From contig JAFRGL010000012.1 in the NCBI GenBank assembly GCA_017433825.1, positions 111,239 through 175,238 on the forward strand: a DNA stretch of 64,000 bases, written 5' to 3'. The first letter of the stretch is position 1. The number at the start of each line of letters is the position of its first letter. This document shows positions 7,130 to 23,997 of the stretch, piece after piece. The stretch comes from Eubacterium sp. GTDB lineage: Bacteria > Bacillota > Clostridia > Lachnospirales > Lachnospiraceae. Both the position numbers and the translations under genes were made by a program. Under the pieces are notes generated by a model. That model saw only the letters and a program-made list of their open reading frames with translations. It was not told where the DNA came from and made no database searches.

Positions 7130-8644
7130 ATGAAAACTTTTGATTGGATTGAGAATACAACCCCGGAGGCGGAAGGCATTCCTTCCTCAGCCGTCCTGCG
7201 GTTTCTGGACGCCGTGGAAGAAGAAGGCCTGCAGCTTCACAGCCTGCATATTATCCGGAACGGAAAGCTGGCGGCGGCAGGTGTGGCTGCGCCGTTTACG
7301 GAAGACAGCATCCACCGGATTTATTCCGCGGCGAAAGGCATTGTGTCGGCTGCCGTGCTTTTTGCCATAAGCGAAGGATATTTTGATTTTGATACGAAGG
7401 TGGTGCCGCTGCTTAAGGCACATATGCCCGAAAATTTGGATCCGCGGTTTGAGGCGCTTACCGTATACCATCTGCTGACCATGACCACCGGCCATAACGC
7501 GGAAACCTTCTCGAAGATGCAGCACAGTGACGACTGGGTGCGCACTTTCTTCGAACTGCCGCCGGTGTATGAGCCCGGAACCGTCTTTTTCTACGATATC
7601 GGCGCCCAGTATATACTGAATTTCCTGATTCTGCAGGAAACCGGCCTGAACGTGGAAGAGTATCTGAAACCGAGGCTTCTGGACCCGCTGGGCATTGAAC
7701 TGAAAGCTCTGCACGGCGCGCAGGAAATCTTCAATTCCTCTACCATTCATCTGCGGCCGGCGGACATGGCAAAGCTGGCTCTCTTTTACCTGAATGAAGG
7801 AAGCTGGAACGGCAGGCAGCTGCTGGATAAAAAGCTGGCAAAAGAAGCCGGCCGTTTCCATGTGTCCAATTACGATCCAAAGCGGGGATTTACGAATTCC
7901 ACTGCAGGTTATGCGCTGCATATGTGGCGCAATGCCGTGGGAGGATTCCGGCTGGACGGCGGACAGGGACAGTTCGGCCTGGTGTACCCGGAAGCGGGCA
8001 TGGCTGTGGGCATGATGTCCTGTGAGCAGAACATGCACCGCATTCTGGAGCTTTTCCAGGAGCACGTGTACCTTGCCTGCCGGTTAAGGCCCCTGCCTGA
8101 TGACAGGTGTGCGCAGAAAACACTTGAGGACAGACTGGAGAACTGGACGCTGGCGCCGGAGACCTTCCGGTTTTATTCGTCTGATGAGCGGAAGCTGGAC
8201 GGTACTGTCTGGAAATTTTCGTCAAACAAACCCGGCATAGATACGGTATCCTTCCGGTTCGGGAAAGAAACCACCGTATCCGTAACCTTCGAAGACGGTT
8301 CAATGCGCTCTGCAGTGTGCGGAAGAGAAGGAAAATGGCTGCCCGGACGGGGCTTCCTCTTTGCCCGGCAGGAAGAGCTGGAAATCGGCGATCTGGGCCG
8401 CATCCTTTTCAGGGACAAGGCGGAAAGCCTGTCAAGTGCCGGCTGGAGAGCGGACGGAAGCTTTGAAATACAGTTCCGAAGCCCTTCCATGCTGAATTAT
8501 GTATCCGCAAACTTCTTCTTTACCGGTGACGAAGCAAGGCTTACCCTTTCGCCGGAGTTTGCCGCGGAACCCGGCTCGGCCGCACTACCCGGTATCTTCC
8601 CGGCACCGCCGAAGCCTGTTGTAATCCCGGGAAGAAAGTGCTGA
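7130..8644 (+). CDS. Beta-lactamase-family serine hydrolase
   Basis: 504-residue protein of the class C beta-lactamase/PBP4*/esterase fold. The catalytic SxxK is S66-A-A-K69 (IYSAAKG). A tyrosine motif lies in FFYDIGAQY and the third motif in DGGQGQFG. The N-terminal 330 residues form the hydrolase domain; the C-terminal 170 are an added beta-rich domain of unknown use. No signal peptide or membrane helix is visible, so it is probably cytoplasmic and more likely an esterase or peptidase than a resistance enzyme. AGGAGG at 7114-7119 sets the start at 7130 rather than the earlier ATG at 7100. Confidence 0.85.
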   Translation: MKTFDWIENTTPEAEGIPSSAVLRFLDAVEEEGLQLHSLHIIRNGKLAAAGVAAPFTEDSIHRIYSAAKGIVSAAVLFAISEGYFDFDTKVVPLLKAHMPENLDPRFEALTVYHLLTMTTGHNAETFSKMQHSDDWVRTFFELPPVYEPGTVFFYDIGAQYILNFLILQETGLNVEEYLKPRLLDPLGIELKALHGAQEIFNSSTIHLRPADMAKLALFYLNEGSWNGRQLLDKKLAKEAGRFHVSNYDPKRGFTNSTAGYALHMWRNAVGGFRLDGGQGQFGLVYPEAGMAVGMMSCEQNMHRILELFQEHVYLACRLRPLPDDRCAQKTLEDRLENWTLAPETFRFYSSDERKLDGTVWKFSSNKPGIDTVSFRFGKETTVSVTFEDGSMRSAVCGREGKWLPGRGFLFARQEELEIGDLGRILFRDKAESLSSAGWRADGSFEIQFRSPSMLNYVSANFFFTGDEARLTLSPEFAAEPGSAALPGIFPAPPKPVVIPGRKC

Positions 8645-8668
8645 ATATAACAGCAGGACATAAAGAAC

Positions 8669-8697
8669 GACCGGAGTTAATCTCCGGCCGCGCTTTT
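8669..8697. terminator. Hairpin between convergent genes
   Basis: CCGGAG (8671-8676) and CTCCGG (8682-8687) with T-rich flanks on both strands. It could serve the serine hydrolase and the M18 peptidase. Confidence 0.5.
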
Positions 8698-8738
8698 ATT
8701 ATGCGGGCAGGGGCTTGTCTCCTGCCGTCATTTTCGTT

Positions 8739-10031
8739 TCAGACCAGCTCGCAGCTGCCGTCCGCGTGGGTGCTGATGGATTTGGAATAGAAGACACGGC
8801 TTGCTTTGATGAGGTATTCCATATCTTTTACGCCGGCGGTCTCGAAGGCGGAATGCATGGCCAGCTGGGGCAGGCCGATATCCGCGGTGTTGACGGAGAC
8901 GTGGGCCTCGGAAATATTGCCGAGGGTTCCGCCGCCTTTCAAATCCGGACGGTTGGCGTAACGCTGGAAGGGAACGCCCGCTTCTTCACAGACCAGGCGG
9001 AAAAGCGCTGCGGAAATGCCGTCGGTGGCATACCGCTGGGTGGCATTGTATTTGAGTACAATGCCCTCATTCATGTAAACGCTGTGGTTCACATCCCTGA
9101 CTTCGCCGTGGTTGGGATGTACGGCGTGGGCATTGTCGCAGGAAAGCATGGAGCTTGCGGCATAAAGCTGGTGCTTTTTCTCCGCATCGGCGCCGTACTG
9201 TTCTGCGATACGGTCCAGCACGTCCGCCAGGAATGTGGAATCCGCACCCTGCCTTGTGAGGCTTCCCACCTCTTCATTGTCGAAGAGGGCGTATACCGGA
9301 ATACTGGCAGAATCCGCGGAAGCCAGGAATCCTTCCAGGCAGGCGAAGGAGCACTGCATATTATCGAGCCTGGGGGAAGAGATATAGTCTCCCCAGCGTA
9401 TGCCCCTGTCGGTATTGTACAGGAACAGATCAGAGGCAAGAACATTTTCGGGGGCTGTCCCTGCAAGGGCAGCGGCCCTTTCATTTACTGACAGGCCTTC
9501 GGTCAGGCTGTAAACCGGCACCATATCCACCGCGGGGTTGTATTTCTGCCCGTCATTTGCGCTGCGGTTCATGTGGATGGCCAGGTTCGGAATCATGGCG
9601 CAGGGCTCTTTAAAGTCCACCAGACGGGTTTCAAAGCCGTTCCCCGTGGAGACAATCACCCTTCCCGCGATGGAAAGAGGGCGGTCCATCCAGGTGGACA
9701 TGATCATCCCGCCGTAGCCTTCTGTGGAAAGCTTTGTATAATGAGCGTCCGCATACTGGGCGTTTTCCTTGATTTTAAAGGTAGGGCTGTCGCAGTGGGC
9801 TGCAGTCATCATAAAGCCGGTGGGCATCTTATCGGGAAGCCGGAAGGCAATCAGGGAAGAATTGTTCCGGGTGGTGTAGTATCTGCCGCCTTTGACAAGA
9901 TCCCAGGCCGATGCCTCCGCAAGCCGGGTGTAGCCCGCTTCACTCAAAAGCTTTGCCGCGGTATTTACCCCGTGGAAAGCCGTGGGGGATGCGCTGATGA
10001 AATCGAACAGTCTGTCCGTCAGGTCGTGCAT
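8739..10031 (-). CDS. M18-family aminopeptidase
   Basis: 430-residue zinc aminopeptidase that removes acidic or neutral N-terminal residues from peptides in the cytoplasm; the family forms dodecamers. Metal and catalytic motifs are complete: TAAHCDSP, LFDNEEVGS, the SMLSCDNAHAVHPNH segment and a terminal GLPQLAMHSAFE. Length is normal. The start at 10031 is chosen because MHDLTDRLFDFI matches the usual family N-terminus. It begins 4 bases after the stop of the aldo/keto reductase, so the two genes form one operon and are probably translationally coupled. Confidence 0.93.
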   Translation of the reverse strand: MHDLTDRLFDFISASPTAFHGVNTAAKLLSEAGYTRLAEASAWDLVKGGRYYTTRNNSSLIAFRLPDKMPTGFMMTAAHCDSPTFKIKENAQYADAHYTKLSTEGYGGMIMSTWMDRPLSIAGRVIVSTGNGFETRLVDFKEPCAMIPNLAIHMNRSANDGQKYNPAVDMVPVYSLTEGLSVNERAAALAGTAPENVLASDLFLYNTDRGIRWGDYISSPRLDNMQCSFACLEGFLASADSASIPVYALFDNEEVGSLTRQGADSTFLADVLDRIAEQYGADAEKKHQLYAASSMLSCDNAHAVHPNHGEVRDVNHSVYMNEGIVLKYNATQRYATDGISAALFRLVCEEAGVPFQRYANRPDLKGGGTLGNISEAHVSVNTADIGLPQLAMHSAFETAGVKDMEYLIKASRVFYSKSISTHADGSCELV

Positions 10032-10035
10032 GTCT

Positions 10036-11061
10036 TTATACCTGTACCTTTCCGGCAAGGATGTCTTTGTAATCCGCCAGGTTTTTCTTTAAAAGCTCGG
10101 GAATATTCAGATGATACGGGCAGCGTGACAGGCAGGCGCCGCATTCCACGCAATTCTCGATTTTCATCATTTCCGCCTGCATTTCCGGTGTCAGCCAGGC
10201 ATCGGAAGGCGCGCGGCGGATCATCTGGCTCATCCTGGCGCACTGATTGATCATGATGCCCACGGTACAAGGCGCACAGTAGCCGCAGCCCCGGCAGAAG
10301 TTGCCGGCCAGTTCTTTCTTGTCCGCCTCGATAAGAGCCCGCATTTCGTCATCCAGCACCGGCATTTCATCGAAGAAGGACAGCCATTCCTCCAGTTCAG
10401 ACTCCCTCTGGATGCCCCAGATGGGAAGCACGTTGTCAAACTGGGTCATGAAGGCCATGCAGGCTTTTGAATTGGTTAAAAGCCCGCCGGAAAGGCCTTT
10501 CATGGCGATGAAGCCCATATTTTTCTCCTTACAGGCATTTACCAGGGCAATATCTTCTTCGCTGGCCAGGTAGCTGAAGGGGAACTGCAGGGTTTCATAC
10601 AGTCCGCTTTCCACGATTTCCCTGGCCACGCCGATCTTATGGGCAGTGATGCCGATGTGCCTTATCATGCCTTTTGCCTTGGCTTCCACCAGGCATTCGT
10701 ACAGGCCGGTGCCGTCACCGGGACGGTAGCACTGGGGCACGCAGTGAAGCTGATAGATATCCAGATAATCGGTTTTCAGGTTGGTCAGGGTGGTGTTCAG
10801 CTGCTCCCAGAACTGTTCAGGGGTTTTCGCCTGGGTTTTTGAGGCGATAAAGATTTTATCGCGCATGCCTTCGAAGGCTGCGCCGAGTTTGATTTCGCTG
10901 TCTGTATAGCCCCTGGCGGTATCGAAAAAGCGCATGCCGCCGTCATAGGCCTTTCTTAAAATCCTTACCGCGGTGTCCAGATCCACCCGCTGGATGGGGA
11001 GTGCGCCGAAGGCGTTCTGGGGAACGGTGATGCCGGTCATTCCGAGGGTTACTGTTTTCAT
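10036..11061 (-). CDS. Aldo/keto reductase with C-terminal ferredoxin domain 1
   Basis: 341 residues. The N-terminal 260 are an AKR TIM barrel (start KTVTLGMTGITVPQNAFG; catalytic-type FDTARGYTDSE; LDIYQLHC). The C-terminus carries cysteine motifs CRGCGYCAPC and CVECGACLSRCPY for Fe-S clusters. AKRs with a ferredoxin tail are common in anaerobes and probably draw electrons from ferredoxin as well as NAD(P)H; their substrates are mostly unproven. A second member of the family lies at 22773-23918. First gene of the two-gene minus-strand operon. Confidence 0.9.
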   Translation of the reverse strand: MKTVTLGMTGITVPQNAFGALPIQRVDLDTAVRILRKAYDGGMRFFDTARGYTDSEIKLGAAFEGMRDKIFIASKTQAKTPEQFWEQLNTTLTNLKTDYLDIYQLHCVPQCYRPGDGTGLYECLVEAKAKGMIRHIGITAHKIGVAREIVESGLYETLQFPFSYLASEEDIALVNACKEKNMGFIAMKGLSGGLLTNSKACMAFMTQFDNVLPIWGIQRESELEEWLSFFDEMPVLDDEMRALIEADKKELAGNFCRGCGYCAPCTVGIMINQCARMSQMIRRAPSDAWLTPEMQAEMMKIENCVECGACLSRCPYHLNIPELLKKNLADYKDILAGKVQV

Positions 11062-11142
11062 AAAAATCTCCTTGCTTTAAGTGCTTTGCCGGTCCGGTTT
11101 TCTTTCGGAACCGGACGGCGTCTTTCGTGCTGTAACAGTAAC

Positions 11143-11171
11143 ATTATAGTATGACAGGCCGGAAAAGACAA
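11143..11171 (-). promoter_or_regulatory. Promoter for the AKR/M18 operon
   Basis: Minus strand TTGTCT (11171-11166), 17-base spacer, TATAAT (11148-11143). Confidence 0.65.
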
Positions 11172-11228
11172 GTGCGCAGGTTGTGCAGAAAGACGAACCG
11201 CAGGCCGGTTTCAGCCCTCCCTTTTTCC

Positions 11229-11257
11229 TTGCTTATGGAAAGAAAATAAGATATAAT
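11229..11257 (+). promoter_or_regulatory. Promoter for the activase/GRE operon
   Basis: TTGCTT 11229-11234, 17-base spacer, TATAAT 11252-11257. It stands back to back with the AKR promoter in the 306-base divergent gap. No terminator-like hairpin was seen between 11368 and 20734, so this may drive all five genes. Confidence 0.65.
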
Positions 11258-11367
11258 ACTATTTTGGATAATAATGCGGGAGAATACCCTCACACCCGGA
11301 AATCCGGACTTCAGCGGCATTTGCTGCCGCATTTACGATAAATAACTGTAATTACAAGGCAGGAAAC

Positions 11368-14300
11368 ATGAGCAGTATCGAAACAAAAGAAACAAAATGC
11401 ACCTACCGGGCCGGTATCGATATCGGCTCCACAACCGTAAAAATCATCGTTTCCGACGGGGAACGAATCGTTTATCAGAATTATAAAAGGCACAATGCAG
11501 ACGTCAGGAAAACCGTAACGGAGATGCTTGCGAAAGTGCAGGAAGCCCTGGGGGATATTTCCTGTACCATCGCGGTAACCGGCAGCGGCGGCATGAATCT
11601 GGCCAAGGTGCTGGACATCGAATTTGTCCAGGAAGTAATTGCCGTGGCATCAGAAGTCAAAGCCGTTTCTGAGGGCGTGGACGTGGTCATCGAACTGGGC
11701 GGCGAGGACGCGAAGATTATCTTCCTGTCCGGCGGCATCGAACAGAGAATGAACGGTATCTGCGCGGGCGGAACCGGCGCCTTTATCGACCAGATGGCGG
11801 CCCTCATCCAGACAGATGCGGAAGGCCTGAATGAACTTGCAAAGCATTACAGGGATATTTATCCTATTGCAGCCCGCTGCGGCGTATTTGCCAAAAGCGA
11901 TATCCAGCCACTTATCAATGACGGCGTCCCCAGGGAGGACCTGGCGGCGTCCATCTTCCAGGCAGTGGTTAACCAGACCATTTCCGGCCTGGCATGCGGC
12001 CGAAAGATTAAAGGCAAGGTAGCTTTCTTAGGCGGTCCTTTGTATTTCCTTTCCGAGCTGAGAGAAGCTTTTATCCGCACATTGAAGCTTACGGATGAAA
12101 CGGCGGTCGTTCCGGAAAACGCCCATCTTTTTGCCGCCCGCGGCGCGGCCAGGAGGGAAAGCACAGGGAAAGAAAGGTCTTTAAGCTCCCTGATAGATAT
12201 ACTGGAGCATACGGACCGGATTGTCACCGAGATGCATACCATGCCGCCCCTTTTCGAATCGGAGGAGGATTACCGGGCATTTAAGGAAAGACAGTCCGCC
12301 TATGTGGTGAAAAAGAGAAGCTTTTCCGACTATACAGGCGACTGCTTCTTAGGGATGGACGCGGGTTCCACCACCATGAAGCTGGCGGTGATTTCCGCGG
12401 AAGGGGAACTTTTGTATTTCTGGTACGGCAACAACTTCGGCGATCCCTTAAAGGTTGCAAAAGAAGCCCTGCTGGACATGTACGCAAAGAAAAACCCGGA
12501 AGCGCATATCCGCTACAGCTGCAGCTCGGGCTACGGCGAGGAACTGGTAAAGAACGCGTTTATGCTGGATGAAGGGGAAGTGGAAACCGTTTCCCACTAT
12601 TATGCCGCCCGCTTTTTCGAACCGGATGTGGACAGCATCCTGGACATAGGCGGCCAGGATATGAAGTTTATCCGCATCAAGGACGGAAGCGTGGACTCCA
12701 TTGTTTTAAATGAAGCCTGCTCCTCCGGCTGCGGCTCCTTTATTGAAAACTTCGCGAATTCCCTGGGCTATTCCGCAGCGGAATTTGCCGCGCTGGCCGT
12801 AAAAGGCAGGAATCCCGTGGATCTGGGCACACGGTGTACCGTATTCATGAATTCCAATGTGAAACAGGCCCAGAAGGAAGGCGCGCCGGTGGAGGATATC
12901 GCCGCCGGGCTTTCCTATTCCGTTATTAAAAATGCGCTTTTCAAGGTTATCAAGCTCAACGACGTCACCGGCCTCGGCGAAAAGGTGGTGGTGCAGGGCG
13001 GTACCTTTTACAATGACGCGGTTTTGAGAGGCTTTGAACTGATTGCGGGGCATGAGGCTGTCCGGCCGGATATCGCCGGTATCATGGGCGCCTTCGGCAG
13101 TGCCCTGGTGGCAAGGGAAAGATATACAGGCCAGGCTACGGGCATGGCATCCCGAGAAGAGGTAGAAGGCTTTACCTACGAGACCGCCTCCGCCCGCTGC
13201 GGCGGCTGCACCAACAACTGCCGCCTGACGGTCAATCATTTCTCCAACGGCAAACGGTATATTTCCGGCAACCGGTGCGAGAAGGGGCTTGGCAGGAGTA
13301 AGGCATCGGAAGAAGTGCCCAACCTGTACGAATATAAGAAGAAAAGGCTGTTCGATTATCAGCGGGTGACCCCGGAAACCGCCAAAGCAACGGTGGGTAT
13401 CCCCCGGGTACTGAACATGTATGAGAACTTCCCCTTCTGGATTGCGTTTTTTACCAACCTGCAGATTTGCGTGGAGCTGTCCCCGTTCTCGGATACACTG
13501 ATCTACGAAAAAGGTATGGACAGTATTCCCAGCGAGTCGGAATGCTATCCTGCCAAGCTGGCCCACGGCCATATCGAATGGCTGATTGAAAAAGGCGTGA
13601 AGACTATTTTCTACCCCTGCGTCATGTATGAGCGCAAGGAAGTGGAGAGCGCCAAGAACCAGTACAACTGCCCGATGGTCATTTCCTATCCGGAAAACAT
13701 CAAGAACAACGTGGAAAACCTGAATGAGCAGGGCGTGCGGTTCCTGAATCCGTTTATTTCCTTTGCGGACAAGAAGGTGCTGGCAGAGTGCCTGACAGAT
13801 TTCATGAGGAAAGAGTTCGGCGTCAACAAGTCCGAAGTGTTCTGGGCGGTGGAAGCCGGCTGGACCGAGATGACAAAGGCCAGAGAGGATATCGCCCTGG
13901 AAGGTTTAAGGGCCATCCAGTGGATGAAGGACAAAGGCCGGCAGGGGATCGTACTTGCGGGCAGGCCTTACCATATCGACCCCGGCGTCAACCACGGTAT
14001 CCCGGAAATGATAGCAGGCTATGGCTATGCGGTGCTGACGGAGGATTCCGTTTCCTCCATGAACCTGAATGAAGTGGCATTGCGGTCCACAAACCAGTGG
14101 ACCTATCATGCGCGGCTGTATTCCGCAGCCCAGTATGTGGCGAAGCGGAAGGATATGGAGCTGATCCAGCTGAATTCCTTCGGCTGCGGCGTGGACGCGG
14201 TAACCATTGACCAGGTGCAGGAGCTGCTGCAGTCCGCCGGACGGATGTACACCCTCCTGAAAATTGACGAGGTCAACAATCTCGGCGCAGCCCGTATCCG

Positions 14301-15642
14301 GGTTCGTTCCCTGATTGCCGCGATGAAAATGCGGGAAGCCGAACCGGCCGTAAAAGGCGCGGAAGACTACCACCGCCTGGAATTTACAAAGGAAATGTAC
14401 AAATCCGGCGAGTATACGATTCTGTGCACGGACATGATCCAGCCGCATTTTGATTTCTTCGAGGCGGCCATGCGGGTCTGCGGCTACCGGCTCATAAACA
14501 TGAAGAATGAAGGCACGTCCGTACTGGACATGGGCCTGAAATATGTAAACAACGACGCCTGTTACCCCACCATGATCGTAACCGGCCAGATTCTGGATGC
14601 CGTGAAATCCGGCAAATACGATACGGACCGGCTGGCGGTCTTTATGGTGCAGACCGGCGGCGGCTGCCGCGCCTCCAACTACGTGGCATTTATCAGGAAG
14701 GCCCTGAAGGATATGGGCTGTCCGCAGATTCCGGTCATTTCCATCAGCCCGAATATGATGGAGAAAAACTCCGGCCTTATCTTGACGCCCACCATGGGCT
14801 TCAAGGCCCTGCAGGCCATTATTTACGGCGACGTGCTCATGAAGGTGAAATATCGCATGCGGCCCTACGAGAAGCAGAAGGGGACCGTGGACGCCCTCTA
14901 TGAGAAATGGCGGGCAAAATGCGTGGAGGACTTAAGCAGGAAGAAGATAGCCTGGAGCACCTTCCATGCCAACTGCCGGAATATTATCGAGGAATTTGAC
15001 AATGTCCCGGTGTATGAAGACATGGTAAAGCCGAAGGTGGGCATCGTAGGCGAAGTCCTGGTGAAATACATGCCCGTGGCGAACAACCATCTGGCGGACA
15101 TCCTGGAACGGGAAGGCGCCGAGGTGGTGATGCCCGACTTCGTCGAATTCATCGAATACTGCTTCTGGAACAACGTTTACCGCCACAAGATCGGCGGCGC
15201 GGGCGGTTTTGTCACCTTTGTCTCCCAGGTGTTCATCAAATTTATGGATGATTTCCGCGGGAAAATCCGCAAGGCCTACGCGAAAAGCCGTCATTTCACC
15301 ATGGATGCGCCTTTGAAGAAGATCCGGGAATACGCCGTGGAAATCCTGCAGCTGGGCAACCAGTGCGGCGAAGGGTGGTTTTTGGCCGGCGAGGTGGTAA
15401 ACCTGATAAAGGAAAAGGTGGACAATATCGTCTGCATCCAGCCCTTCGGCTGTCTGCCCAACCATATCGTGGGCAAGGGCATCATCAAGAAGGTGAAGGA
15501 GCTGTATCCCCAGTCCAATATCGTGGCGGTGGACTACGATCCTTCCGCCAGCCGCGTCAACCAGGTGAATCGTATCCGGCTTATGCTGGAAGTGGCCAAG
15601 GACAAGCTGGCGGAAAACGGCCCGTTAACCGACGCGGTCTGA
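11368..15642 (+). CDS. Giant 2-hydroxyacyl-CoA dehydratase activase-type protein (two BcrAD/BadFG ATPase domains + DUF2229 + HgdB-like region)
   Basis: 1424 residues. Two ASKHA ATPase domains lie in tandem (about 12-260, GIDIGSTTVKI; about 325-590, GMDAGSTTMKL). Each has the pair of cysteines that in HgdC-type activators share one 4Fe-4S cluster across a homodimer: C132 (CAGGTGAFID) and C171 (RCGVFAKSD), then C451 (CSSGCGSFIE) and C490 (RCTVFMNSN). A Cys-rich linker follows (CGGCTNNC, NRCEKG, about 609-640), then a DUF2229 segment from about 677, then an HgdB/dehydratase-like region to the end. Activators of this kind use ATP to push one low-potential electron into a dehydratase or reductase. 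Such fusions are widespread in clostridia but lack a settled function. First gene of the GRE operon. Confidence 0.9.
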   Translation: MSSIETKETKCTYRAGIDIGSTTVKIIVSDGERIVYQNYKRHNADVRKTVTEMLAKVQEALGDISCTIAVTGSGGMNLAKVLDIEFVQEVIAVASEVKAVSEGVDVVIELGGEDAKIIFLSGGIEQRMNGICAGGTGAFIDQMAALIQTDAEGLNELAKHYRDIYPIAARCGVFAKSDIQPLINDGVPREDLAASIFQAVVNQTISGLACGRKIKGKVAFLGGPLYFLSELREAFIRTLKLTDETAVVPENAHLFAARGAARRESTGKERSLSSLIDILEHTDRIVTEMHTMPPLFESEEDYRAFKERQSAYVVKKRSFSDYTGDCFLGMDAGSTTMKLAVISAEGELLYFWYGNNFGDPLKVAKEALLDMYAKKNPEAHIRYSCSSGYGEELVKNAFMLDEGEVETVSHYYAARFFEPDVDSILDIGGQDMKFIRIKDGSVDSIVLNEACSSGCGSFIENFANSLGYSAAEFAALAVKGRNPVDLGTRCTVFMNSNVKQAQKEGAPVEDIAAGLSYSVIKNALFKVIKLNDVTGLGEKVVVQGGTFYNDAVLRGFELIAGHEAVRPDIAGIMGAFGSALVARERYTGQATGMASREEVEGFTYETASARCGGCTNNCRLTVNHFSNGKRYISGNRCEKGLGRSKASEEVPNLYEYKKKRLFDYQRVTPETAKATVGIPRVLNMYENFPFWIAFFTNLQICVELSPFSDTLIYEKGMDSIPSESECYPAKLAHGHIEWLIEKGVKTIFYPCVMYERKEVESAKNQYNCPMVISYPENIKNNVENLNEQGVRFLNPFISFADKKVLAECLTDFMRKEFGVNKSEVFWAVEAGWTEMTKAREDIALEGLRAIQWMKDKGRQGIVLAGRPYHIDPGVNHGIPEMIAGYGYAVLTEDSVSSMNLNEVALRSTNQWTYHARLYSAAQYVAKRKDMELIQLNSFGCGVDAVTIDQVQELLQSAGRMYTLLKIDEVNNLGAARIRVRSLIAAMKMREAEPAVKGAEDYHRLEFTKEMYKSGEYTILCTDMIQPHFDFFEAAMRVCGYRLINMKNEGTSVLDMGLKYVNNDACYPTMIVTGQILDAVKSGKYDTDRLAVFMVQTGGGCRASNYVAFIRKALKDMGCPQIPVISISPNMMEKNSGLILTPTMGFKALQAIIYGDVLMKVKYRMRPYEKQKGTVDALYEKWRAKCVEDLSRKKIAWSTFHANCRNIIEEFDNVPVYEDMVKPKVGIVGEVLVKYMPVANNHLADILEREGAEVVMPDFVEFIEYCFWNNVYRHKIGGAGGFVTFVSQVFIKFMDDFRGKIRKAYAKSRHFTMDAPLKKIREYAVEILQLGNQCGEGWFLAGEVVNLIKEKVDNIVCIQPFGCLPNHIVGKGIIKKVKELYPQSNIVAVDYDPSASRVNQVNRIRLMLEVAKDKLAENGPLTDAV

Positions 15643-15670
15643 CAAGACACCCGGACATGAAGGAGGAAAC

Positions 15671-16489
15671 ATGGAAAACGGAGGCTACCGTTTTAAAAAG
15701 ATAACAGAAGACATTACGCTGCTGTACGGTTTCCCCGAGGAATGCTGCATGTATGCGGTAAAGGGAAGGGATAAAATCCTGCTGGTGGATACCGGTATGG
15801 GAACGGGCGACCTGAATAAAGCCCTGGCCGTTTTAGGCGGCGGGCTTCCCGCACTGGTTTTCAATACCCACGGCCATGCGGATCACTGCGGCGGCAACCG
15901 CCAGTTCCCGGAAATATACCTGCACGAAGGCTCTTACGCAGACGCGGACAGGGCGGAAGAAGAGAAGAAGACCCTGCCCGGCGCCGAACCGGTGGAAGGC
16001 ATCCTGGACTATGACTGGAGGAAATGCCCGGTGCATGAGGGCAATGTCTTCGATCTGGGCGGCAAAACCATCGAGGTCCTGGAAACCCCGGGCCATACCC
16101 CGGGCTGCATCAGCCTTCTGGACGCGGAGGACAGAATCCTTTTCGGCGGTGACCTGGTGGTGAGCAATGATCACTGTTCCCACATGCTGGCGTACGTGGA
16201 ATGGTTTTCCTTCTCCACGGTTTCCGTTGAAACCTGGTACAGGAGCCTGCAGAAGATCAAGGCCAGGCAGAAAGACTGGGATTATATCCTGGGCGGTCAT
16301 GACGCCTTCCTTCTTAAGCCGTATTACCTGGACGAGCTTCTGGATATGTGCAGGGATATCTTAAACGGTACGGCCAGACCGTATCACCCTCAGCTGAAAC
16401 CGGTATACGGAAATATTTCCTGCTGGAAGCTGGAGCGGGAGCATACGGCCGTCCTTTACCATGATGAAGTGATTTTTGATAAAAAATAA
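15671..16489 (+). CDS. Metallo-beta-lactamase-fold hydrolase 1
   Basis: 272 residues with a full set of dinuclear metal ligands: H67-x-H69-x-D71-H72 (THGHADH), H142 (PGHTPG), D161 (GGDLV) and H210 (GGHDA). The layout is glyoxalase II/general MBL, cytoplasmic (no signal peptide). It has a strong AGGAGG site 28 bases after the giant activase gene and is followed 15 bases later by a paralogue, with the GRE gene next. Likely a thioesterase, lactonase or similar hydrolase acting on an intermediate of the same route; the substrate is unknown. Confidence 0.9.
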   Translation: MENGGYRFKKITEDITLLYGFPEECCMYAVKGRDKILLVDTGMGTGDLNKALAVLGGGLPALVFNTHGHADHCGGNRQFPEIYLHEGSYADADRAEEEKKTLPGAEPVEGILDYDWRKCPVHEGNVFDLGGKTIEVLETPGHTPGCISLLDAEDRILFGGDLVVSNDHCSHMLAYVEWFSFSTVSVETWYRSLQKIKARQKDWDYILGGHDAFLLKPYYLDELLDMCRDILNGTARPYHPQLKPVYGNISCWKLEREHTAVLYHDEVIFDKK

Positions 16490-16504
16490 AGGAGAACACG
16501 GACA

Positions 16505-17293
16505 ATGCGGCATCAGGTGAAGAAAATCAAGGACAATATCTTCCTCCTGTACGGCGTTCCGGACGAATGCTGTATTTACCTTGTGTGCGGGTCGGAAGCG
16601 GCCCTGGTGGTGGATACCGGCTTCGGCATCACCGATTTGAAGGAGGATATTGAGGAGCTGACGGATTTGCCTTACTGGGTGGTGAACACCCACGGCCACG
16701 GGGACCATTCCGGCGGGAATATTTATTTCGATACGGTGTACATGAGCGCGGCGGCGGAGCCGGATGCGGCGGACGCCGTAAACCTGAACCGGACGAAGCT
16801 TTCCGCGGGAACCATGGATTTGATTGAGGACAGGCTGAAAAGCGCGAAATACCGTCCCTCCTTTATCGATGAGGGCTTTGAATTTGACCTGGGAGACCGG
16901 CAGGTTGAAGTGCTGGAGATTCCCGGCCATACGTCCGGCTGCCTGGCGTTTCTGGATAAAAAGGACAGGGCTGCCTTCACCGGCGACTGCTGCGTAAAGT
17001 CCATGGACATACTGATGGTGGTACCCCAGGCGCTGACCCTTTCCGAATACTGCGAAAGCATGAAGAAACTGGCATCCCGGTCTGCGGATTATGATGAAAT
17101 ACTTACCGGCCACGATGAAGAGCCCATGCCGGCGTCCTTCGTGGAAGATGTGGTGTACTGCTGCGAAAAGATCCTTTCCGGCGAATGGGAGGGCGAAGAC
17201 CTGGAGCTTCCGCCGGTATTTGAAAACACGAAAGCAAAAAGAATTGCATATAAAGATTTTGCCATAGACTACAGGCAGGAAAAGCTTGTCTGA
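16505..17293 (+). CDS. Metallo-beta-lactamase-fold hydrolase 2
   Basis: 262 residues, a paralogue of the preceding gene (shared LLYG.P.ECC near the N-terminus, same spacing of motifs). Metal ligands are H63-x-H65-x-D67-H68, H142, D161 and H203, all present. The two proteins differ clearly along their length, so the duplication is old and both copies have been kept active. Ribosome site AAAGGAGAA before 16505; 23 bases before the GRE gene. Function unknown beyond metal-dependent hydrolysis. Confidence 0.9.
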   Translation: MRHQVKKIKDNIFLLYGVPDECCIYLVCGSEAALVVDTGFGITDLKEDIEELTDLPYWVVNTHGHGDHSGGNIYFDTVYMSAAAEPDAADAVNLNRTKLSAGTMDLIEDRLKSAKYRPSFIDEGFEFDLGDRQVEVLEIPGHTSGCLAFLDKKDRAAFTGDCCVKSMDILMVVPQALTLSEYCESMKKLASRSADYDEILTGHDEEPMPASFVEDVVYCCEKILSGEWEGEDLELPPVFENTKAKRIAYKDFAIDYRQEKLV

Positions 17294-17316
17294 CCGAACT
17301 TGAAAAGGAGAACAAG

Positions 17317-19737
17317 ATGAACGAACGGCTGAAAAGAATGTATGCTCAGATCAAAACCAACTACCAGCACATCGGTATCGAGAAATTCAAGATTATCACG
17401 AAAACCGAAGCCGAATGCGCCGGTTATCCCGCTATCCTGCGCAGGGGCCAGACATTGAAAAACGTTCTGGAGCAGTTCCCGATTTTTATCGGCGAGGACG
17501 AGCTTTTCGTAGGCAATCCCGCCAGCAAGCCCTGGGGCCTGGAAATCGAGGCAGGCCTGGGCAAATGGTCGAAGGAAGAGTGCGAATACCTCCGGGAGGA
17601 CGGCTTTGATTTCTCCGTGGAGGACCAGGAAGAAATGCTGCGCATCAATGAGCAGTTCCACCCCTTCGGCATGTACCAGGGTGCGAACCTTATTATCGCG
17701 GAAAATGAGCGCCTGGATATCTTCGCCAGGAGCGGCATGTTCCTGGCGCCTTGGAAAAAGGACAAAACCCTGGGCAACCGTGTGGGCGGCGGCGCTGCCT
17801 GCTCCGGCCTGGGCAACGGCCCCGGCTGGAACCTTCTGTGCATCAACTACGGCCTGGCCCTGGAAAAAGGCCTGCTGGCCCTGATCGACGAGTGTGACGA
17901 GGAGATTAAGAACAACCGTTATTTCGATAAGAGAAGCTTTGAAAGAGGCATCACGCTGCAGGCCATGAAGCTGTCATTGCAGGGGCTGGTGAACTACGCC
18001 GCAAGGTTTGAGAAGCTGGCAGCGGAAATGGCTGAAAAGGAAGCTGATCCGGTCCGCAGGAAAGAGCTGGAGGAAATCTCCGCCATCTGCGCCCGTGTGC
18101 CGGCATATCCCGCCAGAACCTTCCGGGAGGCAATGCAGACCTTCTGGTTCATGTTCATGATGGTCAATCCCGCGCCCACGCCCACCATCGGCCGCTTCGA
18201 CCAGTATATGTATCCGTATTACAAGGCGGATATCGAAGCCGGCAGGATTACGGACGAGGAGGTGCTGGAGCTTCTGGGCATGCTCCGGATCCGCTGCATG
18301 GAGATGAACCAGCAGTCAGGCCGGGAAATCCGGAAACGTACATCCGGCGGAGCCCGCTGGATGAACATGACCATCGGCGGCGTAAAGCCCGACGGAACGG
18401 ACGCCTGCAATGAACTGACCAGGCTTATCCTGGAAGCCGTACGCGACGTAAGGACCCCGCATCATACCGTCACCTTGCGTGTCTGTGAAACCACCCCGGA
18501 TGACGTGATGATCCTCGCACTGAAATGCCAGGCCGAGGGCTGCTCCATGCCTGCCTTCGTAGGCGACAAATCCTACATTGACTACTTCATGCAGGTTCAT
18601 GACCCCAATGACGGCCTTCCCGTGGAAGTAGCCAGGGATTACTGCATGACCGGCTGTATCGACGGCAATATCCAGTACCGTACACGTACCATGGGCATTA
18701 CGATGTTCGTCTGTCCGCTGATGCTGGACATTTTCATGAACAACGGCTGGGACAAGAATATCGACGAATACGTAGGCCATCAGATTGCCGGCGATTTGAC
18801 CAAATACGAAACCTTCGACCAGTTCCTGGACGATTTCAAGGGCGAATACAGATATTTCGTGGAAACCGCGGCGGAGAAGCTGAACATCGAAAGCGCCGTA
18901 TTCAAGGAGCTGCTTCCGGACCCCTTCCGCGCAGCCTTCATGTACAACGGCATCAAGTCCGGCTTTGACTGCTACGCCCAGGAATATCCCTTCGAGAGCA
19001 ACCAGCTCTTAAATCCTGTGGGCATGGTCAACCTGGCCCAGTGCCTGTACGCCATCAAGGTGCTCTGCTTTGATAAGAAGACTGTCAGCCTGCCGGAAAT
19101 GAAGAAGGCCATGGACGCCAACTGGGAAGGCTATGAAGAGCTGCATCAGATGTGCCTTGACCTGCCGCATTACGGCAACGGCATTGACGAAGTGGACGAT
19201 ATGGTGCAGGCCTGCTACCGTTACTGGGTAGACGTGGCCACTAGCATTCCTTCTGCCCTGGGCGGACATTTCCGCTGCTCGGCCATCTCCGTAACCAGCC
19301 ACCAGCCCGGCGGCGCCTTGTGCGGTGCGATGCCTGACGGCCGCTGCGCCGGGGACATCCTGGCGGATGCCTGCGCTTCCCCGATGGCCGGCTGCGATCA
19401 TGAAGGCCCGCTGGCGGTGTTCAGAAGCGCCATGAAGATTCCGCAGGACGAGTTCCAGGCTATGCTGCTGAACATGAAGTTCTCGCCCTCCGCCATCGCC
19501 ACGGACGCGGACAAGCTGAAGCTGGCCAGCGCCATCAAGGCATATTTTGCCAACGGCGGCAAGCACGTCCAGTTCATCGTGGAGGATCAGGAAACCTTAA
19601 AGGATGCCCGTATCCATCCCGATAAGCATTCGGACATCATGGTCCGTGTGGCAGGCTATTCCGCTTACTTCGTACAGCTGACGGAAGGCCTGCAGGACGA
19701 GGTTATCGCCAGGACCGAAAATACCATGGTAAGATAA
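17317..19737 (+). CDS. Glycyl radical enzyme of unclear substrate (PFL superfamily)
   Basis: 806-residue glycyl radical enzyme. The C-terminal radical motif is MVRVAGYSAYF with Gly780 as the radical site, and the finger-loop cysteine is most likely C447 in GCIDGN. Characterised dehydratases, lyases and decarboxylases of this branch (glycerol dehydratase, CutC, HPA decarboxylase) have Cys-x-Glu; here the acid is Asp449. The usual His/Gly segment is SHQPGGALCGAMPDGR. Length and the PDGR...LADACASPM block exclude the nucleotide-reductase class. The cognate activase lies 58 bases downstream. Pyruvate formate-lyase itself is unlikely because its Cys-Cys pair is absent. The operon partners suggest a multi-step radical pathway; the substrate is unknown. 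Confidence 0.93.
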   Translation: MNERLKRMYAQIKTNYQHIGIEKFKIITKTEAECAGYPAILRRGQTLKNVLEQFPIFIGEDELFVGNPASKPWGLEIEAGLGKWSKEECEYLREDGFDFSVEDQEEMLRINEQFHPFGMYQGANLIIAENERLDIFARSGMFLAPWKKDKTLGNRVGGGAACSGLGNGPGWNLLCINYGLALEKGLLALIDECDEEIKNNRYFDKRSFERGITLQAMKLSLQGLVNYAARFEKLAAEMAEKEADPVRRKELEEISAICARVPAYPARTFREAMQTFWFMFMMVNPAPTPTIGRFDQYMYPYYKADIEAGRITDEEVLELLGMLRIRCMEMNQQSGREIRKRTSGGARWMNMTIGGVKPDGTDACNELTRLILEAVRDVRTPHHTVTLRVCETTPDDVMILALKCQAEGCSMPAFVGDKSYIDYFMQVHDPNDGLPVEVARDYCMTGCIDGNIQYRTRTMGITMFVCPLMLDIFMNNGWDKNIDEYVGHQIAGDLTKYETFDQFLDDFKGEYRYFVETAAEKLNIESAVFKELLPDPFRAAFMYNGIKSGFDCYAQEYPFESNQLLNPVGMVNLAQCLYAIKVLCFDKKTVSLPEMKKAMDANWEGYEELHQMCLDLPHYGNGIDEVDDMVQACYRYWVDVATSIPSALGGHFRCSAISVTSHQPGGALCGAMPDGRCAGDILADACASPMAGCDHEGPLAVFRSAMKIPQDEFQAMLLNMKFSPSAIATDADKLKLASAIKAYFANGGKHVQFIVEDQETLKDARIHPDKHSDIMVRVAGYSAYFVQLTEGLQDEVIARTENTMVR

Positions 19738-19795
19738 ATACAGGGAAGAGCTCCGGCCTGCAAAAGGGCCGGAAATCCCCTTCCGGGAGGAAAAT

Positions 19796-20734
19796 ATGAG
19801 AGAAGATTATCTGGAAGTGACAGCGCCGGTTTTCAATATCCAGAGCTATTCCATCCACGACGGCCCGGGCGTGCGGGTAACCGTATTTGTAAAAGGCTGC
19901 CCCCTGCGCTGCAAATGGTGCGCGAACCCGGAATCCAATCTGGCCGAGCCCCAGCTTATGACATATTCCAACAACTGCACAGGCTGCGGCCGCTGCATCC
20001 CCAAATGTCCGCAAAATGCCATAAAAGTCGGTCCGAAGGGGGATAAATACGTGGCAATTACCGACCGATCTTTATGTGTATCCTGCGGGGCCTGCATTGA
20101 TGTCTGTCCGGCGGACGCCAGGGAGATTTCCGGCAGGGATATGACCGTGGCGGAAGTACTGAAAAAAGTAATGGCTGACAAGATTTTCCTGGATGCCTCC
20201 GGCGGCGGCATGACCGTATCCGGCGGCGAATGCCTGATGCACCCGGAATTTACGTCCTGCCTCCTGTACGCGGCACAGCAGGAAGGCCTGCATACCGCGG
20301 TGGAATCCTGCAGCTTTGCTTCCCGCGAAGTGATTGACCGGGTATTCCCTTATGTAAACCTGGGGCTTCTGGACATCAAGCACATGGACAGCGAAACCCA
20401 CAGGCAGCTTACCGGCGTGCCGAATGAAGTCATCCTGGACAATATTAAACATGTTTACCATGACCTGAAGGTGCCGGTGATTGTCCGTGTGCCTGTTATT
20501 CCGGGCTATAACGATTCGGATGAGAATATTTACGCCACCGCGGACTTTACCGCGAAAGAGCTGGGCATGGACGTGGCAGTGCACCTCCTGCCGTATCACA
20601 GGCTCGGTGAATCGAAGAACGACAGCCTGGGTAAGGAGATGAATATGGGCATCGAAGTGCCTTCCGACGAACATATGCAGGGCTTAAAGTCCATCGTGGA
20701 AAGCTTCGGCCTGAAATCCCAGATAGGCGGATAA
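19796..20734 (+). CDS. Glycyl radical enzyme activase (radical SAM)
   Basis: 312-residue radical-SAM protein that abstracts a hydrogen from Gly780 of the neighbouring enzyme using SAM. The radical-SAM cluster motif is CPLRCKWC (CxxxCxxC). An inserted ferredoxin domain holds two more clusters (CTGCGRCIPKCP and CVSCGACIDVCP), the form seen with dehydratase/decarboxylase-type GREs and absent from the PFL activase proper. GGGMTVSGGE is the SAM-binding GGE motif. GGGAGGAAAA before 19796 supports the start. A CCGGCC/GGCCGG hairpin lies between the enzyme and activase genes and may set their expression ratio. Confidence 0.95.
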   Translation: MREDYLEVTAPVFNIQSYSIHDGPGVRVTVFVKGCPLRCKWCANPESNLAEPQLMTYSNNCTGCGRCIPKCPQNAIKVGPKGDKYVAITDRSLCVSCGACIDVCPADAREISGRDMTVAEVLKKVMADKIFLDASGGGMTVSGGECLMHPEFTSCLLYAAQQEGLHTAVESCSFASREVIDRVFPYVNLGLLDIKHMDSETHRQLTGVPNEVILDNIKHVYHDLKVPVIVRVPVIPGYNDSDENIYATADFTAKELGMDVAVHLLPYHRLGESKNDSLGKEMNMGIEVPSDEHMQGLKSIVESFGLKSQIGG

Positions 20735-20743
20735 AAACAGATA

Positions 20744-20772
20744 TTGAAAAAACCGCGGGAATAGGATACTAT
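20744..20772 (+). promoter_or_regulatory. Promoter for L,D-transpeptidase
   Basis: TTGAAA 20744-20749, 17-base spacer, TACTAT 20767-20772. Confidence 0.55.
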
Positions 20773-20811
20773 ATATAGCTAAGAAATCAGTAAAGTTACA
20801 GGCGGTACTTT

Positions 20812-22713
20812 ATGGAAGAGAATAAAGACAGAGAAGAAATTCTCACCAGTGAAGTGAAGGATGCGGAGGCCGAACTTCTGGAAGGCAAAGCGCATATGGG
20901 CGAAGCCGTGGAAGCAGCCGCGGGTCAGGGAAAAGAGGCGGCCGGAGAAGTTCTGGAGAAAGTAAGTGGCGCGGCAGATGAAGCCATGGAAGCGGCGACG
21001 ACTGTCCTGACGGATGCGGAGGGCGAACTTCTGGAGAAGAGAGCCGCAGCCGGCAGCATTACGGACGCGATGGGGGAGGTTCCCGAGGAGCTGAAGGAGG
21101 CTGCCCAGGAAGCGGCCCAGGAGGCCCCGACGGTAGCCCTTACCGATATCTCTAAGATAGCGGAAGAGCGGAAGGCGGAAACACTGCCGCAGGTGGAGCC
21201 CGTGAAAGAACAGCCGGTTTTCCGGGAAGAAGACATTGACGACGATGACGACGATGAGGATGACGAGGCCGAAGAAAGACGTCCGAAGGGCAGGATTATC
21301 GCCCTCATTATCGTGCTGGTCCTGCTGGCCGGCGCGTATTTCCTGGGAAGGATGTATTTCCAGGATCATTTCTATCCCGGCACGGTGATCAACGAGTATG
21401 ATGCCTCCAAGATGACGGTTACCGAGCTCAAGCGCGTCATGCAGGAAGACCTGACGAACTACAACCTGACCATCAAAGAGCGGAACAACGCGACCGAGCA
21501 TATCCTGGGTTCCGACATCGGCCTGAAATATGTGGATTCGGACGAGATTTCCAACCTGATGAAGAATCAGGACGCCAACCTCTGGATTCTGCATATTTTC
21601 GGCAATAAATATTATACCGTTTCCGGCGCGACCGAGTATGACAGCACCAGGCTGAACAACAAGATCAATGCGCTGGACTGCCTGAAGCCGGGCAACAGCG
21701 CGCCGCCCGAGGATGCCTGTATCGTCAGAAGGAACAATACCTTCGTCATCGAGCCGGAGAAACTCGGTTCCACGCTGGACAAGAAAAAGACGGTAAAAGC
21801 CATCACCAACGCCATCGAAGCGGGCAATTTCAATGTCAACCTGGACGCGGAAGAATGCTATGTGGCGCCTGCCGTCTTCAGCGATGACGAAGAGCTGAAT
21901 GCGGATGTGGTACAGCTTAACGAGCTGACTACGGCCCACATTGTCTATGATTTCAGCGACCGGTTCTGGGAAGTGGATTCCGAGCTTATCGCTTCATGGC
22001 TTGTGAAGAACGAAGAAGGCAAATATTATCTGGACGAGAGCCTGGTGCGTGCCTGGGTGACGGATATGGCCTATGAAACCGATACCTTCGGCCTGAAGCA
22101 CAAATTCGTGACCTCCTACGGCATTGAGATCGAGCTGGAAGGCGGCGGCGACTACGGCTGGTGCATCGACAAGGATGATACCACCGAGCATCTGCTTCAG
22201 TATATTTACGACCACGCCAACGTGCAGATCCAGCCGGATTACCTGTATACCGCACTTGACCGTTCGGAGAATGATATCGGCAATACCTACGTGGAAGTCT
22301 GCATTGCCGCACAGCATCTGTGGGCTTACTCAGACGGTGTCCTGATAGCGGATGCCCCGGTTATCACCGGCCGTGTGGCAGACGGCTACGCAACACCTTC
22401 CGGCAGCTGTTGGGCTATCGACGGCAAGAAGGAAGACTGGCAGTTCACCGGGTATTCCAATGCCCATTCCGACTACTGGATGCCCTTCAACGGGCCTGTG
22501 GGCCTGCATGATGCCAGCTGGCAGGAGCCCGGCAATTATACCATTCCGGACTACTATTATCATTACGGCAGCCATGGCTGTGTGAATATGCAGCTGGATA
22601 CGGCCAGAATCCTGTATCAGCACATGGAGATCGGTTACCCCGTCGTGGTTTACTATTCCGTAGACCAGGTGGTAGGCCCGGCCAATACAGAGCGGCTGAT
22701 TGAAGGATGGTAA
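20812..22713 (+). CDS. L,D-transpeptidase (YkuD) with long acidic cytoplasmic tail
   Basis: 633 residues. The N-terminal 160 are rich in Glu and Ala and end in a run of Asp/Glu (DIDDDDDDEDDEAEE). One transmembrane helix follows at about 161-182, so the rest is outside. The middle (about 185-480) resembles the peptidoglycan-binding repeats found before YkuD domains. The C-terminal YkuD domain has H-x(n)-SHGCVN with catalytic C590. It should make 3-3 peptide cross-links or attach proteins to the wall. The long acidic inner tail is unusual for the family and could bind cytoplasmic partners. The promoter is its own and a terminator follows. Confidence 0.92.
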   Translation: MEENKDREEILTSEVKDAEAELLEGKAHMGEAVEAAAGQGKEAAGEVLEKVSGAADEAMEAATTVLTDAEGELLEKRAAAGSITDAMGEVPEELKEAAQEAAQEAPTVALTDISKIAEERKAETLPQVEPVKEQPVFREEDIDDDDDDEDDEAEERRPKGRIIALIIVLVLLAGAYFLGRMYFQDHFYPGTVINEYDASKMTVTELKRVMQEDLTNYNLTIKERNNATEHILGSDIGLKYVDSDEISNLMKNQDANLWILHIFGNKYYTVSGATEYDSTRLNNKINALDCLKPGNSAPPEDACIVRRNNTFVIEPEKLGSTLDKKKTVKAITNAIEAGNFNVNLDAEECYVAPAVFSDDEELNADVVQLNELTTAHIVYDFSDRFWEVDSELIASWLVKNEEGKYYLDESLVRAWVTDMAYETDTFGLKHKFVTSYGIEIELEGGGDYGWCIDKDDTTEHLLQYIYDHANVQIQPDYLYTALDRSENDIGNTYVEVCIAAQHLWAYSDGVLIADAPVITGRVADGYATPSGSCWAIDGKKEDWQFTGYSNAHSDYWMPFNGPVGLHDASWQEPGNYTIPDYYYHYGSHGCVNMQLDTARILYQHMEIGYPVVVYYSVDQVVGPANTERLIEGW

Positions 22714-22724
22714 AGAAAACAAGC

Positions 22725-22753
22725 AAAAGGGCTGACGGAGTCAGCCCTTTTTT
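22725..22753 (+). terminator. Terminator after L,D-transpeptidase
   Basis: AAAAGGGCTGA (22725-22735), CGGAG loop, TCAGCCC then TTTTTT. Confidence 0.85.
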
Positions 22754-22772
22754 CAGGAAGAGAGGGCGGAAA

Positions 22773-23918
22773 ATGCATTATAGAAAACTAGGAAAAACCG
22801 GGTTAATGGTCAGTGAAATCGGCTTCGGCGGGGAGTGGCTGGAAAAGCATGAAGTGGAAGAGGCCGTGGAACTGGTAAGATATGCAGGTGAGAAAGGCAT
22901 CAACATCATTGACTGCTGGATGCCTAATCCGAAGGCCAGGGACATCATCGGCAAAGCCATCAAAGGGAACCGGGAAAACTGGATTATCCAGGCGCATTTC
23001 GGCTCCACCTGGCAGGACGGACAGTACGTCCGGACCCGGGACATGGACAAGGTGGTGCCGGCTTTTGAAGATTATCTCACAAGGCTGGGAACCGATTACA
23101 TTGACCTGGGCATGATTCATTACGTGGATTCCGTCGAGGACTGGGAAAACTGCCTGAACGGGGAATTCATCAAATATGTGCGTAAGATGCACGACAGCGG
23201 CGTGATTAAACACATCGGCCTGTCCACCCACAACCCGCTCATTGGCAAACTGGCCGTCGAATCCGGTTTCGTGGAAATGCTTCTTTTCGCGGTGAATCCG
23301 GCCTTTGACATGAAGCCGGCCAGCGAAAACATCATGGAAATGATCGAAAACTATGACAATACGGGTTTATCCGGCATAGATGCGGACCGGGCTGAACTGT
23401 ACCGGCTCTGCGAGGAAAAGGAAATCGGCATGACGGTCATGAAAGGTTTCCTGGGCGGCCGGCTTTTTGATGAAAAGCAGTCACCCTTCGGAACGGCCTT
23501 TACACCGGTGCAGCTGATTCATTATGCGCTGACCAGGCCCGGCGTTACCTCCATTCTCTGCGGTTATGATACCAAAGAGCAGGTGGATGCTGCCGTATCC
23601 TACGAAACAGCCTCAGATGGAGAGAAGGATTATGCTTCGGTCATCGCATCTGCGCCGCTGCATTCCTACAAAGGACAGTGCACCTACTGCGGACACTGCA
23701 AACCCTGCCCCATGGACATCGATATCGCCATGGTGAACAAATTCTACGACCTGGCCACAGCCCAGGAGGAAGTGCCGGAAAGCGTAAAGTCGCATTATCA
23801 GGCATTGGAAAAGAAAGCCGGAGACTGCATCGCCTGCAAAGGCTGCGAAGCCAGATGCCCCTTTGAGGTGAAAATCGCTGACAGAATGAAAAAGACAGCT
23901 GAATTGTTTGGCTGTTAA
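22773..23918 (+). CDS. Aldo/keto reductase with C-terminal ferredoxin domain 2
   Basis: 381 residues. AKR barrel (HYRKLGKTGLMVSEIGFGG start, NIIDCWMP in place of the usual FDTA.Y segment, IDLGMIHYVDS) with a C-terminal tail bearing CTYCGHCKPCP and CIACKGCEARCP. The usual catalytic Tyr region (DTAxxY) reads DCWMPNP, so the classic AKR tetrad is altered. The reaction may rely on Fe-S electrons or be lost. GAGAGGGCGG before 22773 supports that start; the upstream ATG at 22707 lies inside the previous gene. Related to 10036-11061 but clearly diverged. Confidence 0.88.
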   Translation: MHYRKLGKTGLMVSEIGFGGEWLEKHEVEEAVELVRYAGEKGINIIDCWMPNPKARDIIGKAIKGNRENWIIQAHFGSTWQDGQYVRTRDMDKVVPAFEDYLTRLGTDYIDLGMIHYVDSVEDWENCLNGEFIKYVRKMHDSGVIKHIGLSTHNPLIGKLAVESGFVEMLLFAVNPAFDMKPASENIMEMIENYDNTGLSGIDADRAELYRLCEEKEIGMTVMKGFLGGRLFDEKQSPFGTAFTPVQLIHYALTRPGVTSILCGYDTKEQVDAAVSYETASDGEKDYASVIASAPLHSYKGQCTYCGHCKPCPMDIDIAMVNKFYDLATAQEEVPESVKSHYQALEKKAGDCIACKGCEARCPFEVKIADRMKKTAELFGC

Positions 23919-23997
23919 TCCCTGTTTATAAATATATACAGTATGATACAGAACAAAGCAGTCTAAAGTAAAACATAAAAAAGGAAGTTCTGAAAAT

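Follow-up and report, generated by a model that had tools for sequence, protein, structure and literature searches.

A Cys-X-Asp glycyl radical enzyme and two metallo-beta-lactamase-fold hydrolases appear to recur as a set in gut bacteria, with a giant HgdC-type protein as a local addition

Five closely packed genes lie on one strand of a 64,000-nucleotide stretch of a Eubacterium sp. genome (contig JAFRGL010000012.1, positions 111,239 to 175,238; the whole stretch is called the window hereafter). They encode a giant HgdC-type ATPase protein (ACT), two metallo-beta-lactamase-fold hydrolases (MBL1 and MBL2), a glycyl radical enzyme (GRE) and a GRE activase, and the locus raises the question of which of them belong together. 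The GRE and the two hydrolases look like a set that recurs in several gut bacteria, and ACT, the energy-driven electron-transfer protein, seems to have been added locally. A check of open reading frames (ORFs) in the window re-found the five-ORF array at the same coordinates as the preliminary description, all on the plus strand, and confirmed its tight spacing of 15 to 58 bases (28, 15, 23 and 58 bases in order). The features are as follows:

11229..11257, plus strand: candidate promoter TTGCTT-17-TATAAT (TATAAT at 11252-11257), spotted by eye and not in the consensus-scan list.
11368..15642, plus strand: ACT, giant HgdC-type ATPase protein of 1424 amino acids with two BcrAD_BadFG domains and DUF2229 (Pfam/NCBIfam).
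15671..16489, plus strand: MBL1, metallo-beta-lactamase-fold hydrolase (Lactamase_B) with the full metal ligand set (Pfam/NCBIfam).
16505..17293, plus strand: MBL2, second hydrolase of this fold (Lactamase_B) with the full metal ligand set (Pfam/NCBIfam).
17317..19737, plus strand: GRE, PFL-like and Gly_radical domains, Cys-X-Asp clade, with C447, D449 and G780 (Pfam/NCBIfam, alignment, tree).
19796..20734, plus strand: GRE activase, radical S-adenosylmethionine protein with two ferredoxin-like cluster motifs (TIGR02494 above cut-off).

GRE orthologs (80-95% identity, tblastn) were found in at least nine further genomes (G152, G150, the latter also read as locus L062, and those of loci L055-L061); the scan covered the best 80 of 534 relatives (595 stretches), giving 77 loci, and its ortholog counts are lower bounds. 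In whole-genome searches, MBL1 was found in six of these nine, always with a second MBL gene adjacent, and both genes were present in 7 of the 10 ortholog genomes when the window's own is included; by lineage this comes to about four, namely the window's genus, L055/L060, L058 and L061. The pair was on the contig of the GRE, or of its 5' piece, in all seven, either adjacent or within about 11 kb, in varying orders and strands. Among 150 sampled genomes of the bacterial family, both MBL1 (at E 1e-40) and the GRE ortholog were found in the window genome only, the next best GRE being 48% identical. A hidden Markov model (HMM) of the MBLs run over 93 GRE loci matched five, all of them ortholog holders, and the expectation that such GREs usually come with MBL genes thus stood inside the ortholog group and failed outside it. 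The complete five-gene order was found again only in G152, a congener of another species in which the flanks are syntenic too (gaps of 17, -4, 27 and 11 bases; MBL2 at L027:11860-12648 by six-frame HMM search).

The array is real and operon-like, consisting of a conserved four-gene core and a genus-level addition. Shine-Dalgarno-like GGAG-type sites precede MBL1, MBL2, the GRE and the activase, and the first gene has a weaker one. The consensus scan gave five plus-strand terminator-like matches within 11368-20734, all intragenic, and none in the four gaps, in line with the reported lack of an internal terminator. A likely promoter was seen by eye; the consensus scan of 8000-23000 gave no plus-strand promoter upstream of the first gene, and no plus-strand terminator match marked the 3' end of the array. 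In the same interval, promoter-like matches numbered 13 against 10.2 (standard deviation (sd) 3.0) in shuffles and terminator-like matches 23 against 16.3 (sd 3.9), so that individual matches carry little weight.

ACT has two BcrAD_BadFG ATPase domains and DUF2229, and its score against TIGR00241 (222.2, cut-off 125.4) places it among ASKHA ATPase activases. It keeps the HgdC-type cluster cysteines C132, C171, C451 and C490, which correspond to the bridging [4Fe-4S] ligands of HgdC; the linked copy also retains nearly all other cysteines conserved in the set, C423 and C434 being lost. Its family occurs in all seven genomes of the genus and in 98 of 100 sampled genomes of the bacterial family (the window's own included), and the literature listings covered gave no paper on the function of this giant HgdC/DUF2229 family. 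A second full copy was present only in the window genome (G000) and G152 among the seven genus genomes, and this second copy is the linked one. In the ACT tree (40 rows), the linked copies and one copy of G021 grouped with support of 100, apart from the housekeeping copies of the genus, so the linked ACT is not a recent duplicate. Between the same two genomes, linked copies differed by about 0.53 changes per site and housekeeping copies by 0.15.

Linkage of ACT to the GRE was found in only two of the ten ortholog genomes, both of one genus, and the idea that these GREs usually accompany a giant activase is not upheld. Because of this narrow linkage, the near universality of the family and the extra lineage of the linked copy, the conserved unit is MBL1-MBL2-GRE-activase. 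ACT may be an accidental neighbour that gives only a promoter, its job being done by a housekeeping paralog elsewhere; we regard this as a minority possibility. The contrast between a near-universal ACT family and a GRE ortholog confined to one of 150 genomes speaks for it, as does the nearest other copy, that of G021, which sits in an unrelated setting, where the 14 kb examined contain no GRE. G150 further has the GRE and the MBL pair with a single ACT copy at E 1e-100, which the tree places among the housekeeping copies. Against chance adjacency stand the 28-base gap, the good Shine-Dalgarno-like site before MBL1, the order kept in G152 and the retention of a linked copy despite a housekeeping copy in the same genome; its faster change can be read either way.

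The opposite reading, that all five genes serve one pathway, seems unlikely. In that case ACT would use one-electron transfer, driven by ATP, to reduce or dehydrate a coenzyme A (CoA) ester, with the GRE acting before or after this step and the MBLs releasing the product. The tight co-directional spacing kept in G152, the retained cluster cysteines and the distinct lineage of the linked copy are consistent with it, and HAD-type genes (BcrAD/HGD-D) near GREs of the same clade point to a link with the GRE, which is suggestive and not proof. Such genes were neighbours at 5 of 61 clade loci (1.05 Mb), in about four lineages, against none of 22 non-clade GRE loci (0.39 Mb), and were detected by Pfam at L056 and L057 and by home-made HMMs at L069 and L089. 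Sequences of the window, L056 and L057 had served as seeds for these HMMs, which leaves L069 and L089 as the only independent finds. The genes of L056 and L057 lie on the opposite strand with a different architecture, those of L069 and L089 have an architecture other than that of ACT, and L098, the sister of L069, has none. A rough background of about one HAD-type gene per Mb (20 rows in nine genomes of 2.0-2.4 Mb) predicts about one chance neighbour in 1.05 Mb. Component D (PF06050) gave no match at E 0.001 in the five array proteins, which also counts against a single pathway, along with the linkage in 2 of 10 genomes. The proposal that two radical chemistries are joined in one route holds to the extent that both stand side by side; nothing ties both to one pathway. 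ACT is at most a putative member of the cassette. At L056:6503-8157, an HgdC-like fusion gene is broken across two frames, with an intact relative in L057.

The GRE itself belongs to a distinct branch. Its Gly_radical domain (PF01228) scored 96.9 bits against 22.2, with the superfamily RVxGY motif in the glycyl loop VRVAGYSAY (G780), and the radical cysteine C447 was unchanged in 55 of 55 aligned sequences. The activase, 58 bases downstream, scored 348.8 bits on TIGR02494 (cut-off 174.35). The loop at the cysteine reads C447-I448-D449 and not Cys-X-Glu (CXE). The GRE fell below all NCBIfam equivalog cut-offs (CutC, HypD, sulfopropanediol dehydratase, indoleacetate/hydroxyphenylacetate decarboxylase, PFL), with top scores of 433.5 against 678.2 for subfamily PFL2-3 and 411.7 against 1050 for CutC, the rest being lower. 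Structural alignments gave at most 32% identity to solved GREs. It is improbable that this protein is a decarboxylase of the arylacetate type and not an eliminase. In favour of that reading, its best single-sequence match in the PDB was 7e7l (E 2.8e-118), named arylacetate decarboxylase of Olsenella scatoligenes, which likewise has no CXE (GCVL in the alignment). Its overall fold was that of the eliminases, glycerol and propanediol dehydratases being the structures nearest to its predicted model (mean predicted local distance difference test score (pLDDT) of 90.6).

The tree of 109 GREs put the window GRE in a 73-member clade (support 100) that covers seven phyla by label, and a mixture-model tree of a subset (22 versus 17 rows) gave the identical split with support of 100. 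Rows shorter than 700 residues (e.g., L060, L102) were removed, and the set took in roughly half of the GREs encoded by the window genome; with paralogs and close relatives among many of the rows, clade counts are not independent events. Asp stood two residues past the radical cysteine in 72 of the 73 members and Glu in one (L089, Dehalococcoidales), and outside the clade one sequence (L118) had Asp at that position. The scan patterns (YPYYKKDI-like and MPAFVGDK-like) exclude the Asp/Glu position. W348, H382, S419 and D732 were further hallmarks of this Cys-X-Asp (CXD) clade against 29 CXE rows, controls that were mostly returned by the scan and do not form a balanced GRE sample. The sole CXE member (L089:7363-9771) stands next to a CXD paralog within its locus, so that Asp and Glu forms occur there as a natural pair. 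The GRE homolog at L113:2441-4828 has Thr in place of the radical Gly (VRVATYSAY), much like the threonyl-type aminoacyl radical enzymes described in PMC11528403.

Background on GREs was taken from PMC8473560, PMC6181972, PMC11574389, PMC11528403 and PMC7077986. There, CXE is called conserved among GRE eliminases and its Glu needed for activity, IslA E470Q and HypD E436Q being inactive (PMC8473560, PMC7077986). According to PMC11528403, the identity threshold that divides most GREs of different function lies above 40-50%, and relatives at 37-50% may thus differ in substrate. In the literature accessible to the search, mostly outside subscription journals, neither a GRE accompanied by two MBLs nor a clade of CXD GREs came up.

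The window genome (2.6 Mb) encodes about 28 GREs on contigs C1 to C23, with groups on C19, C12 and C22, a number obtained from 31 rows minus three judged to be fragments or second pieces, and with one row holding an in-frame stop. First-look candidates numbered 15, 26 and 24 in G150, G151 and G152, and those of the window genome exceeded all 21 other family genomes listed (0-17), with 128 more outside the list; of the 21, 16 had 1-4, three had none, one had 8 and one had 17.

Around the wider clade, home-made HMMs compared genes near (up to 4 kb; 368 kb in total) and far (6-10 kb; 270 kb) from the GRE at 52 non-ortholog loci. Citrate-type transporters (10 loci near, 1 far), PucR-type regulators (15 and 1), AMP-binding CoA ligases (7 and 1), PGA_cap proteins (7 and 2) and MmgE/PrpD (6 and 0) were more frequent near, and none of these five HMMs matched within 4 kb of the 22 non-clade GREs; one representative of each family was confirmed by Pfam. 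URO-D (3/3), LysR (3/3) and TctA (2/2) were equal near and far, and SBP5 was commoner far (1 near, 7 far). Taken in an exploratory way, these neighbours point to carboxylic acids, with carboxylate uptake and CoA ligation. A CoA-linked carboxylate, as suggested earlier in part, is plausible from these neighbours and from the PqsE-like (thioesterase) fold match of MBL1, which ties with true beta-lactamases; an aromatic substrate found no specific support. PGA_cap (CapA-like) genes near CXD GREs occurred in metagenome-assembled genomes of three phyla by label (L033 and L102 by Pfam; L081, L086, L089, L090 and L095 by HMM).

Many proteins of the URO-D family were seen in G000 (including window 41916-43004, minus strand), G150, G152 and G526, several of them adjoining GREs. 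URO-D was rejected as a cassette part: it lies near the ortholog loci G150, L058 and L061, yet the nearest homologue in G000 is 34% identical to that of G150, G000 alone has 12 members of the family at E 1e-30, and URO-D was not enriched near the clade, with three loci each in the near and far intervals. A link to corrinoid O-demethylation (RACo, CobW and URO-D near L061) was likewise set aside; a serine dehydratase gene intervenes before the GRE, and the RACo HMM matched L061 alone among 93 loci, CobW being covered at L061 only.

The explanation that we favour, tentatively and at a little less than an even chance, is a transferable catabolic cassette of the GRE, its activase and the two MBL hydrolases, with an extra ACT copy in front within the genus. 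The MBLs are 36% identical to each other, their metal ligands (H67, H69, D71, H72, H142, D161, H210; the superfamily HxHxDH motif) were unchanged in 12 of 12 sequences, and the model of MBL1 had a mean pLDDT of 92.2. Several points weigh against this cassette. MBL1 was missing at E 1e-25 in 3 of the 10 ortholog genomes (G521, G522, G524), so the MBLs are not obligatory, and the seven positive genomes are not independent, since the window genome, G152 and G150 belong to a single genus and the flanks of L055 and L060 are almost the same. Transporters vary among ortholog loci (CitMHS, Opp ABC), which makes a single substrate for all orthologs uncertain. The families and HMM seeds of the neighbour scan were picked from the near set itself, and the enrichment is exploratory. 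The top Foldseek matches of MBL1 were PqsE, with template modelling scores of 0.62-0.65, and B1 beta-lactamases score similarly. The genomes without the MBL pair include both loci with a CitMHS-type transporter directly before the GRE (L056, L059) and L057, whose contig stops at the GRE. In L056, ORFs at 10202-12190, some 4 kb away from its GRE ortholog, resemble by eye an IstA/IstB insertion-sequence pair.

Anatomy, conservation of MBL-GRE-activase among orthologs, clade and motif are established, and function is what we infer. By analogy with its family, the activase would install the radical on G780, and the substrate, a small carboxylate or acyl compound, would lose a hydrogen to a thiyl radical on C447. 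D449, aligned with the usual catalytic Glu, may act as base or hydrogen-bond partner. The radical would break a C-O, C-N or C-C bond, leaving an acyl product (thioester or lactone) for one or both MBLs to hydrolyse. ACT could assist as a reductase or dehydratase where a step is CoA-linked, or it could simply be a neighbour outside the pathway.

Downstream, a YkuD-type gene starts 77 bases past the array, with a promoter-like match (20744-20772) inside that gap. It adjoins the array in G152 as well and was not seen by the GRE in ortholog loci outside the genus, where only part of the genes are named. Aldo-keto reductases with ferredoxin-type clusters stand on both flanks (AKR1, 10036-11061, minus strand; AKR2, 22707-23918, plus strand); their relatives elsewhere in the genus have different settings, G152 excepted, AKR1 being in other settings in G150 and G151, and AKR1 and AKR2 on separate contigs in G150. 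An Rfam search of 9000-24000 gave nothing at gathering scores.

More broadly, and with considerable doubt, the CXD clade might be a large, phylum-spanning GRE branch with its own carboxylate or CoA-ester chemistry (a radical cleavage of C-O, C-N or C-C bonds that is not among the known GRE reactions), the operon being a ruminant or gut cassette whose product would pass to two MBLs and, in some lineages, to an ATP-driven dehydratase or reductase, with two radical systems in series. The presence of Asp in 72 of 73 members across seven phyla by label, where Glu is described as essential in two characterised eliminases, amounts to a natural experiment on radical catalysis. The clade is a target for new anaerobic organic-acid degradation in gut and digesters, the window GRE an unstudied kind of oxygen-sensitive radical enzyme, and the MBL-GRE-activase cassette a small expressible test set for CXD chemistry.

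Compared with known systems, the window GRE differs from the GRE eliminases (glycerol dehydratase, 1,2-propanediol dehydratase, CutC, HypD, IslA) by Cys-X-Asp in place of Cys-X-Glu and by His382, a position that Gln occupies in 66% of the CXE rows; structural alignments gave 26-31% identity to these enzymes, and every equivalog cut-off lies above its score. Residues His164, His281, Ser282 and Asp447 of glycerol dehydratase align with Leu, Pro, Thr and Gly. With HgdC/BcrAD (2-hydroxyacyl-CoA dehydratase activase and benzoyl-CoA reductase ATPase), ACT shares two ATPase domains, the TIGR00241 match and the cluster cysteines, but it is a single 1424-residue chain with DUF2229, without a PF06050 match, from a giant family near universal in its bacterial family. 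With PqsE-type thioesterases and other MBL-superfamily hydrolases, the MBLs share the fold and complete dinuclear metal ligands; identity to PqsE is 15-19%, B1 beta-lactamases score equally, and the MBLs are distinctive in standing as two tandem paralogs beside a GRE.
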